Assembly: GCF_000487995.2 (NCBI RefSeq)
Contig: NZ_CP097562.1
Coordinates: forward strand, 372,001 to 436,000
Length of the DNA stretch: 64,000 nucleotides
Direction: 5' to 3'
DNA from: Mucispirillum schaedleri ASF457
GTDB lineage: Bacteria > Chrysiogenota > Deferribacteres > Deferribacterales > Mucispirillaceae
Positions 60,863 to 62,818 of this stretch are shown here, piece after piece. The position numbers and the translations under genes were made by a program. The notes beneath the pieces were generated by a model. It was not told where the DNA came from. It did no database searches and was given only the letters and a program-made list of their open reading frames with translations. Each line of letters starts with the position of its first letter. Within the stretch, counting starts at the first letter, position 1.

Positions 60863-61162
60863 TTACTTAACAAAAAGAAGGATAAGAGATACAACTAAAC
60901 CATAAATAGCGATAGATTCAATAAGTGCAACACCTACAAGTAAGTAAGTGAAAATTTTACCTGCAACCCCAGGGTTACGAGAAATACCTTCAAGACCGCC
61001 TCTAATAGCACTACCCATACCAACACCAGCACCAAGACCAGCAAGACCGATTGCAAGACCTGCACCTAAGTAAAGTGCCCATGCACTAGATGATGCACCA
61101 GTTTGTGCGAAAGCTGGCACTGCAATTAATGCCATCATTGTAGCTAAGATAACTTTTTTCAT
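60863..61162 (-). CDS. atpE: ATP synthase F0 subunit c with signal-peptide-like N-terminus
   Basis: 99 aa from ATG 61162 (GGAGG 7 nt upstream). Residues 1-19 look like a cleavable signal (KKVILATMMALIAVPAFA-Q), giving a mature c-subunit of about 80 residues. Helix 1 has the glycine ladder GLAGLGAGVGMG, the loop RNPG, and helix 2 carries the ion-binding E82 in ALIESIAIYG. The Gln of Na+ c-rings is absent from helix 1, so H+ is more likely. Separated from atpB by 626 bp. Confidence 0.93.
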   Translation of the reverse strand: MKKVILATMMALIAVPAFAQTGASSSAWALYLGAGLAIGLAGLGAGVGMGSAIRGGLEGISRNPGVAGKIFTYLLVGVALIESIAIYGLVVSLILLFVK

Positions 61163-61313
61163 TGAAAAGTCCTCCAAAAAATAAAAAATATTTTAAGCGT
61201 AAAATAAGAACGCTATTTTTTTAATTTATATATACATCTTAATAAGATTATATATTTACAAATTTACTTAATTAAATCAAATATAATTTAATCAAGATTT
61301 TAAGCTTAATATA

Positions 61314-61380
61314 GGCGGATCGCTTTAAAACAAAGGGAGTTTACACAATAGTAAATGACCAAGTTTTGAAACTATCCAAC
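61314..61380. repeat. Covarying hairpin unit, copy 1
   Basis: GGCGGAT start, inner stem TTTAAAAC with GTTTTGAAA, apical GGGAGTTTAC-N7-GTAAATGACC and TCCAAC end. The stem base here is weaker than in copy 4 (CGC against ACTA). Confidence 0.7.
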
Positions 61381-61445
61381 AACAAATAAACTAAAACTAA
61401 GCGATGTTAAACATCATATTTAGCTTGAATTTTTTCTTTAGACAA

Positions 61446-61512
61446 GGCGGAAAGTTTTAAAATGAAAGGAGTTTACATAATAGTAAATGACCGAATTTAA
61501 AAACTTTCCAAC
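61446..61512. repeat. Covarying hairpin unit, copy 2
   Basis: GGCGGAAAGTTTT pairs with AAAACTTTCC. Compared with copy 4 (GGATAG/CTATCC) the pair T-A became A-T on both sides (GGAAAG/CTTTCC), a compensated change. Apical AGGAGTTTAC...GTAAATGACC is kept. Outer arms ATATTTAGCTT and AAGCTAAATAT flank it. Confidence 0.72.
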
Positions 61513-61558
61513 ATATCCTAAGCTAAATATATTTAATTAAGATTTTTAGTTTAATCTA

Positions 61559-61626
61559 GGCGGAATGATAAAAAGCGACAGGAGTTTATATAATAAGTAA
61601 ATGACTTAGCTTTTTATTAAGCCAAC
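61559..61626. repeat. Covarying hairpin unit, copy 3
   Basis: The inner stem is entirely different in sequence yet paired: ATAAAAAGC with GCTTTTTAT. The apical AGGAGTTTAT...GTAAATGACT keeps G-GA/GA-C with the next pair changed from G-C to A-T. Outer arms TTTTTAGTTTA and TAAACTAAAAA pair perfectly. Confidence 0.72.
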
Positions 61627-61693
61627 AACGAATAAACTAAAAACTAAACAATTTCAAACATCGCAAATTAGCTTAGATTTTAATTTTAGACAA

Positions 61694-61760
61694 GGCGGAT
61701 AGTTTTAAAACGAAGGGAGTTTACATAGAAGTAAATGACCAAGTTTTGAAACTATCCAAC
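61694..61760. repeat. Covarying hairpin unit, copy 4
   Basis: Best-paired copy: GGATAGTTTTAAAAC with GTTTTGAAACTATCC (one G-T pair), apical GGGAGTTTAC-N6-GTAAATGACC, TCCAAC end. Outer arms TTTTAATTTTAGAC and GTATAAAATTAAAA also pair. It ends 28 nt before the atpB stop. Confidence 0.72.
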
Positions 61761-61788
61761 ACCGTATAAAATTAAAAGACAGCGAATT

Positions 61789-62460
61789 TTAGTGAGCTTC
61801 TTCTAAAGCACCAGCTATATACACCATAGTCAGCATCATAAATACAAAAGCCTGAAGTATGCTTGTAAATATCATTAAGAAGAACATTGGTATTGGTAAT
61901 AAAAATGGTACAAGCATAAATAATATTACCACTACTAAGTCTTCACCAGCAATGTTACCAAAAAGCCTCATTGTAAGTGAAAGTGGTCTTGCTAAGTGGC
62001 TGATAATTTCTATGATTAACATAAATGGTGCAAGTGCTGGTAAAGGTCCTAAAAAGTGCTTAATATAAGATGCACCATGTTTTTTAATACCTATAAAGTT
62101 ATAAAGTAAAAATACAAATATTGCAGGAGCAGCAGTTGTATTCATATTGCTTGTAGGTGGAATAAGCCCAGGAATAAGTCCCATAAGATTTGATACTGCA
62201 ACATAAAGACCAATACCAAAAACTATTGGCAGATAAGGTTTACCTTCTTTACCCATAACATCTACAGCTAAATTGCTGAGACCGCCAACTAAAACTTCAA
62301 AAAAGTTTTGTGACTTAGAAGGTATTTCGCTGCGTAATGAGCGGACATATAAACCTAAAAAGAAAATAATGCACACAGCAACACAAAGCATAATTACATG
62401 AAGATAATGATGCTGAATATTTGCTGGTAAAAATGATGTCAAATTAAGAGGATGTTCCAT
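61789..62460 (-). CDS. atpB: ATP synthase F0 subunit a
   Basis: 223 aa from ATG 62460 (GGGGGAAAG upstream; it overlaps atpI by 17 nt). Five or six helices. The essential Arg of the proton path is in LSLTMRLFGNIAGED, and the C-terminal helix has SILQAFVFMMLTMVYI. It works with the c-ring to couple H+ flow to rotation. The next gene of the operon, atpE, follows only after a 626-bp hairpin-filled spacer. Confidence 0.95.
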   Translation of the reverse strand: MEHPLNLTSFLPANIQHHYLHVIMLCVAVCIIFFLGLYVRSLRSEIPSKSQNFFEVLVGGLSNLAVDVMGKEGKPYLPIVFGIGLYVAVSNLMGLIPGLIPPTSNMNTTAAPAIFVFLLYNFIGIKKHGASYIKHFLGPLPALAPFMLIIEIISHLARPLSLTMRLFGNIAGEDLVVVILFMLVPFLLPIPMFFLMIFTSILQAFVFMMLTMVYIAGALEEAH

Positions 62461-62818
62461 CTTCTTTCCCCCGAAAGATTTGATATATTCCAGTAATAAA
62501 AACTCCCACAAAAGGAAGTATTATACCCAAAGCAAATGACCATTTGTATAACTTAAGCACTACAAGAGAAATATATATACAAACACCAATAAAAACCCAC
62601 CTTGTAAAACTTTGCAGCAGAAAGCCTGTAACTGCAGCCTGCTTTACTGCTCTTTTTAAATAACGGGCAAGTAAAAGTAAATCAATCAATATGATAATAA
62701 AACCTGCAAAAAAAGCATTTGCATAAGTTATATCATAAAAAAAATAAAACACTGTATAACATGATAACAGCATTATTATAGAGATTATAAGCACAGGTTT
62801 ATAACTTTTTATCACCAT
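62444..62818 (-). CDS. atpI: ATP synthase subunit I
   Basis: 124 aa with four membrane helices (about 8-28, 34-50, 66-85, 92-112) and a loop RYLKRAVKQAAVTGFLLQSFTRW typical of AtpI. Helps assemble the c-ring and may aid Mg2+ uptake. Overlaps atpB by 17 nt. Confidence 0.8.
   Translation of the reverse strand: MVIKSYKPVLIISIIMLLSCYTVFYFFYDITYANAFFAGFIIILIDLLLLARYLKRAVKQAAVTGFLLQSFTRWVFIGVCIYISLVVLKLYKWSFALGIILPFVGVFITGIYQIFRGKEDGTSS

Follow-up and report, generated by a model that had tools for sequence, protein, structure and literature searches.

The spacer between atpB and atpE in Mucispirillum schaedleri ASF457 contains four tandem copies of what is most probably (probability of about 0.8) a non-autonomous, palindromic mobile element, similar in kind to MITEs and REP sequences and belonging to a family that spans multiple phyla. 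The family, which crosses phylum boundaries, was previously unlisted; its kind is already known.

A hairpin array between atpB and atpE

The array was first proposed from a sequence-only reading of the window, the 64,000-nucleotide stretch of DNA analyzed here. The four-unit array is real, and all four hairpin cores were located at approximately 67 nt each. The plus strand of the array runs opposite to the direction of the atp operon. The features, in window coordinates, are as follows.

60863 to 61177, minus strand: atpE (ATP synthase subunit c; Pfam ATP-synt_C), downstream gene
61178 to 61788, no strand: atpB-atpE spacer, 611 nt, compared among genera of the order
61294 to 61404, plus strand: unit 1 with outer arms; core 61314 to 61381, tip GGAGTTTAC-N-GTAAATGAC at 61336 to 61359
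61416 to 61527, plus strand: unit 2 with outer arms; core 61446 to 61512, tip 61468 to 61491, outer stem ATATTTAGCTT/AAGCTAAATAT
61541 to 61645, plus strand: unit 3 with outer arms; core 61559 to 61626, tip 61581 to 61605, outer stem TTTTTAGTTTA/TAAACTAAAAA
61665 to 61789, plus strand: unit 4 with outer arms; core 61694 to 61760, tip 61716 to 61739
61789 to 62511, minus strand: atpB (ATP synthase subunit a; Pfam ATP-synt_A), the operon's upstream gene

Each copy forms one long imperfect hairpin composed of an outer stem, a fixed junction (AAGGC ... AAC[AG]C), an inner stem, and a fixed tip (GAGT[T/G]TAC-loop-GTA[A/C]ATGA), and the stems vary freely from copy to copy with pairing retained. The unit length of 67 to 68 nt first given for the array applies to the core only, which is the inner portion of a longer hairpin; the full element is approximately 110 to 130 nt in the atp array and approximately 110 to 150 nt across the family. 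Likewise, the supposedly fixed ends of the units (GGCGGA...TCCAAC) do not extend to copy 3, the 3' end of which is GCCAAC. The outer arms do pair, as tested by partner swaps, although those of copy 1 do so imperfectly, and copy 2 uses a displaced outer stem (ATATTTAGCTT/AAGCTAAATAT). The base stem of unit 4 extends to the atpB stop codon (61789 to 61791).

Folding and covariation

All four atp units are more stable on the plus strand than dinucleotide shuffles, with z scores of -3.0, -4.4, -6.2, and -9.0. Searching the same genome with a short tip pattern identified a fifth copy (848948 to 849019), located 415 kb away between transporter-like and aminotransferase-like genes. The stem of this copy (GGATTAAAATTTTTGC/GCAAAAATTTTAACC) is unlike all stems of the atp units, and its tip and junction are unchanged. 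Among these five copies, 13 of 24 pairs carry two-sided changes compared to a shuffle mean of 5.0; none of 500 shuffles matched this count, and sliding the partner yielded only 4 to 7 pairs. Two-sided changes were present at 21 of 24 pairs in 70 covariance-model matches (383 two-sided cells versus 145 in shuffles), and loci picked by the tip alone gave 438 two-sided cells versus 153. The stem covariation originally read from four copies is thus borne out in three alignments, all above shuffles. In the cross-phylum loci selected by tip only, the junction AAGGC...AAC[AG]C and paired stems also recur. Outer arms pair far better with their own partner than with partners swapped between loci, both in Mucispirillum (-16.6 versus -8.6 kcal/mol) and in other phyla (-26.5 versus -12.0 kcal/mol).

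Two further features of the hairpins were observed. In copies from G026 and G031 (L361 to L375), the lowest 8 to 12 bp or so of the outer stem are locus specific and still paired. In addition, the tip loop of copies at L289 (1290 to 1520) and L295 (1350 to 1520) holds an extra, partly palindromic insert.

Distribution across phyla

We used two covariance models, the second of them built from 70 sequences. Covariance-model searches identified 10 copies in the M. schaedleri genome and 4 to 13 in every congener (4 to 12 in each of nine congeners with the first model), many of them within two unrelated prophage types, and the first model also found some copies in other families of the order. With the second model, carriers make up 16 of 51 Deferribacterota genomes and 4 of 20 genera. 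A single genus can hold both carriers and non-carriers; for example, G040, G041, and G042 are congeners of carriers and lack the element. The sequence-only reading had proposed that many genomic copies showing covariation in other intergenic spaces would support a mobile or structural element, and such copies were recovered.

Beyond this phylum, a scan of GTDB genomes for the tip's 18 fixed bases returned more than 117 stretches. The covariance model confirmed 80 hairpins in 93 searched loci, which included 13 viral contigs; only 1 of the 13 tip-pattern matches on viral contigs was upheld. Carriers include Bacteroidales, Saprospiraceae, Clostridia, Sulfurimonas (Campylobacterota), Gammaproteobacteria, and others, with dispersed copies in Bacteroidota, Bacillota, Gammaproteobacteria, Campylobacterota, and other groups. 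Most carriers outside the Deferribacterota are metagenome assemblies, and isolates include Marinilabilia rubra, Staphylococcus petrasii, and Neomelitea salexigens. Copy number in the carriers of other phyla ranges from 1 to 107 per genome by covariance model. A 2.4-Mb gammaproteobacterial MAG (G081; L325 to L354) contains 320 forward and 344 reverse terminal-repeat sites, or approximately one element per 7 kb, and the highest load is probably around 330 copies per genome. When the phylum to which one Clostridia carrier belongs was sampled evenly, at least 8 of 398 genomes were positive, with 12 candidates scored per genome. Comparing the Bacteroidota element to known phages and plasmids gave zero matches in either set, as did comparing unit 4 of the window to known phages.

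Target-site duplications and evidence for mobility

Terminal inverted repeats with exact target-site duplications were found in Bacteroidota and in a gammaproteobacterium. In two Bacteroidota genomes (G065 and G066), most elements are 142 to 143 bp long and end in terminal inverted repeats (GTGTYTGTC); the 6-bp flanks on the two sides are identical in 32 of 40 elements and follow the pattern TANNTA (8 different hexamers), whereas a shifted control gave 0 of 40. In the gammaproteobacterium G081 and its relatives, the element is 152 to 153 bp long with terminal inverted repeats GTAACTATTCAG, and an exact 8-bp target-site duplication flanks 10 of the 16 elements of full length, a set counted manually from the element listing, with 5 more of the 16 differing by one base. 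The left end in both lineages holds a second copy of the terminal repeat that is paired within the hairpin, and these 142- to 153-bp elements contain no ORF between their paired ends. At L278, nested tandem copies have a duplication in common, showing that arrays can grow through insertion into the element's own flank. Other elements of approximately 177 bp in G065 and G066 (L284, 1319 to 1494; L292, 1340 to 1520) share the same terminal repeats around an unrelated, AT-rich palindromic interior.

Since terminal repeats and duplication lengths vary by lineage, at least two transposition systems are needed. The GTAA ends and 8-bp duplications of the gammaproteobacterial element are traits of the IS66 family. 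In G081, an IS66 transposase gene is preceded by a 14-bp end (GTAACTATTCAGCT) common to the element, and this IS66 copy is truncated. No parent insertion sequence with matching ends was found in Bacteroidota, and among 20 windows at G065 terminal-repeat sites that had no listed partner, none contained a transposase between the ends. Searches for an autonomous element with an intact transposase were likewise negative. As a general partner, IS66 was ruled out by its absence from G000, G092, G072, and G073, and Y1/RAYT was ruled out since 11 of 24 carriers, G000, G062, and G067 among them, have no Y1 transposase gene.

Mobility in Mucispirillum rests on homology of the core, patchy distribution, and one comparison of occupied and empty sites. 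In prophages of this genus, two genomes carry the element at a site that is vacant in two others, and the exact ends of this difference show precise gain or loss. Two unrelated prophage types, one with a gpA terminase and lambda-type portal and the other with Terminase_6N and Phage_portal_3, carry several copies each between structural genes (L048, L049, L050, L053, and L055 to L057); these copies are mostly antisense and lie 18 to 30 nt past stop codons. Neither a fixed terminal-repeat sequence nor terminal repeats with a target-site duplication were detected among the Mucispirillum copies, and their outer stems vary from copy to copy. Insertion into terminator loops, an idea raised by the locus-specific base stems, was abandoned, as stems of this kind are missing from the empty prophage sites.

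Genomic position and the folded strand

The element is scattered through intergenic regions, and its copies often directly adjoin a stop codon. In approximately half of the cases with a stop facing that side, the stop codon lies 18 to 35 nt from the 3' end of the core, which corresponds to the base of the outer stem. Relative to co-directional genes, Mucispirillum copies have an antisense orientation in 19 of 24 cases. In M. schaedleri, two copies flank tRNA-Ile, identically in both operons (C1:1464496-1464775 and 1997704-1997983; L045 5497-5776 and L046), and are in sense direction with a tRNA-Ile/Gly/Ala cluster in a probable rRNA operon spacer.

The placement of copies directly past stop codons, mostly in antisense, could indicate that the gene-strand RNA of the hairpin was co-opted after insertion as a transcription terminator or stabilizer of mRNA 3' ends. 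There is precedent, as known MITEs can stabilize or destabilize mRNA (PMC3733652). However, the atp hairpins have no U-tract 3' of the hairpin in the direction of the genes, and the orientation of Bacteroidota copies is unbiased (8 to 7), making this role unlikely.

The two strands of the hairpin are not equivalent. On the plus strand, the tip places 5'-GAG opposite TGA-3', which gives tandem G.A pairs and an almost invariant G.T pair, whereas the minus strand would show C.T and C.A mismatches instead. This plus-strand asymmetry had been suggested by the sequence-only reading and held up across the family. Stem mismatches follow the same direction in two sets, with 39 G.A versus 8 C.T and 115 versus 5. 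Based on the G.A and G.T pairs of the tip and the excess of G.A over C.T in the stems, the plus strand is most likely the folded, recognized strand. RNA generally retains many more G-U than A-C pairs. In the variable stems, G.T is close to A.C (42 versus 35 and 68 versus 43 in the two sets), which mildly favors DNA over RNA.

These same features bear on whether the family is primarily a structured RNA, in which the sheared G.A tip of a plus-strand transcript would bind a protein and mobility would be secondary. Conservation of the tandem G.A and G.T pairs on the plus strand alone, the stem G.A excess, and the sense orientation of the rRNA operon spacer copies would all fit such an RNA. However, the plus strand is mostly antisense to genes in Mucispirillum operons, variable-stem G.T is barely above A.C, and no promoter signal above chance was found at the array. 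We therefore regard a structured RNA as improbable, and the earlier suggestion of a plus-strand RNA antisense to the atp operon is not supported by the chance-level promoter signals.

Covariation could also arise free of selection by quasi-palindrome correction, in which template switching copies one arm of the hairpin onto the other. Stems within one genome are almost wholly different with near-perfect pairing, and the variable stems contain G.T and A.C mismatches in almost equal numbers, both as expected from such a process. Yet correction should wipe out the tandem G.A pairs, the G.T pair, and the AAGGC/AAC junction, all of which are retained across phyla. Quasi-palindrome correction may contribute to the stems, and it is quite unlikely as the explanation of the family.

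The atp spacer among genera

In other genera of the order with resolved spacers, atpB and atpE are approximately 19 to 40 nt apart (with one overlapping call), and a ribosome-binding site is present. In the eight Mucispirillum genomes in which the site is visible, the spacer is 231 to 900 nt long and contains 1 to approximately 5 hairpins, the first at a constant distance from the atpB stop in all eight. Per-species counts made by exact pattern are lower bounds; for example, the covariance model gives 5 in G001. Within the order, hairpins at this spacer were seen only in Mucispirillum. The atp array is a genus-specific insertion, most simply explained by a single entry followed by copy-number change. 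Its presence at a constant offset in 8 of 8 genomes favors a regulatory array acting on atpE expression, processing, or stability, a role that is very unlikely given that the element occurs at dozens of unrelated sites, that the atp site holds anywhere from 1 to approximately 5 copies, and that other genera do with a spacer of approximately 19 to 40 nt. The atp-specific role left open by the sequence-only reading is therefore not supported, as copies are spread over the genome, prophages, the rRNA operon spacer, and many phyla, and array copy number differs among Mucispirillum species.

A model for movement and its implications

Under the mobile-element explanation, resident insertion-sequence transposases would mobilize the element in trans via its terminal repeats, with an IS66-type enzyme as the candidate transposase in the gammaproteobacterium. 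The plus strand would become single stranded during replication, transposition, or transcription and then fold, and a putative protein would read the fixed tip and junction on single-stranded DNA or RNA. In Mucispirillum, the element entered the atpB-atpE spacer, where its copy number varies by species. Insertion into spacers beside stop codons may be why the element is tolerated even within the atp operon. More tentatively, the core hairpin may be a functional module in its own right that serves a widely conserved protein as a strand-specific ligand, in the form of folded DNA (or RNA). Under this reading, it has moved between phyla and been fitted with different transposon ends, so that a single selfish hairpin makes use of several unrelated transposases.

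As a rule, short bacterial repeats are limited to one genus or clade. A constant design from Deferribacterota to Bacteroidota, Clostridia, and Gammaproteobacteria, combined with the ends of different transposition systems, points to either wide horizontal spread or repeated refitting of the module to new transposases. From the conserved design, one would also expect a shared binding partner, which can be searched for. The element family accounts for a bulky insertion in an essential operon, and its model can help annotators to recognize hundreds of repeats that lack annotation; many of these are at contig ends, where they probably break assemblies.

Relation to known repeat families

Searching Rfam at the gathering threshold returned no family match in the window or in ten loci of four lineages, in agreement with the original impression that the array has no named family. 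A permissive Rfam search of the array gave only chance-level miRNA matches, and our literature searches found no description of the motif. A match to rli38, a Listeria sRNA, at a Clostridia locus was rejected, as it fell below the gathering score and was scored mainly on a separate terminator-like hairpin.

Bacterial MITEs include NEMIS, ERIC, RUP, and Bcr1 (PMC3733652). The element resembles them in being non-coding, intergenic, within 70 to 300 bp, and capable of forming a robust hairpin. In the Bacteroidota and gammaproteobacterial branches, it also has terminal inverted repeats and a target-site duplication, and MITE class membership is shown for these two branches only. Whereas known MITE families are described from single genera or clades and share ends with one parent insertion sequence, here the internal core is kept across phyla, the ends and duplication length vary, and the Mucispirillum copies lack classical terminal repeats. 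The element is also similar to REP/BIME sequences and to REPINs with RAYT (TnpA-REP) as a high-copy extragenic palindrome, found singly or clustered near stop codons, with one strand marked by non-canonical pairs. REPs have a 5- to 13-bp stem and a GTAG or CGTC tag, and GTAG REPs likewise often provide the stop codon (PMC3733652). Unlike REPs, our element is 110 to 150 nt long and has a tip and junction of fixed sequence; the flank profiles of 136 copies showed no GTAG or CGTC tag at its foot.

Integron attC sites are likewise imperfect palindromes with conserved parts and variable stems that are strand specific upon folding and occur in arrays. In contrast to attC sites, copies of this element are dispersed with target-site duplications and without cassettes; paired RYYYAAC/GTTRRRY boxes were not found, and the element ends are AAGGC and AAC[AG]C. 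We also considered an integron-like array for the prophage copies, which are 0.4 to 10 kb apart on one strand, and rejected it because they lie between phage structural genes without cassettes or attC boxes. Rickettsia palindromic elements, known from Rickettsiales and often located within ORFs, differ in these respects; by description alone they are alike, being palindromes of similar size that have spread through the genome with their hairpin retained.
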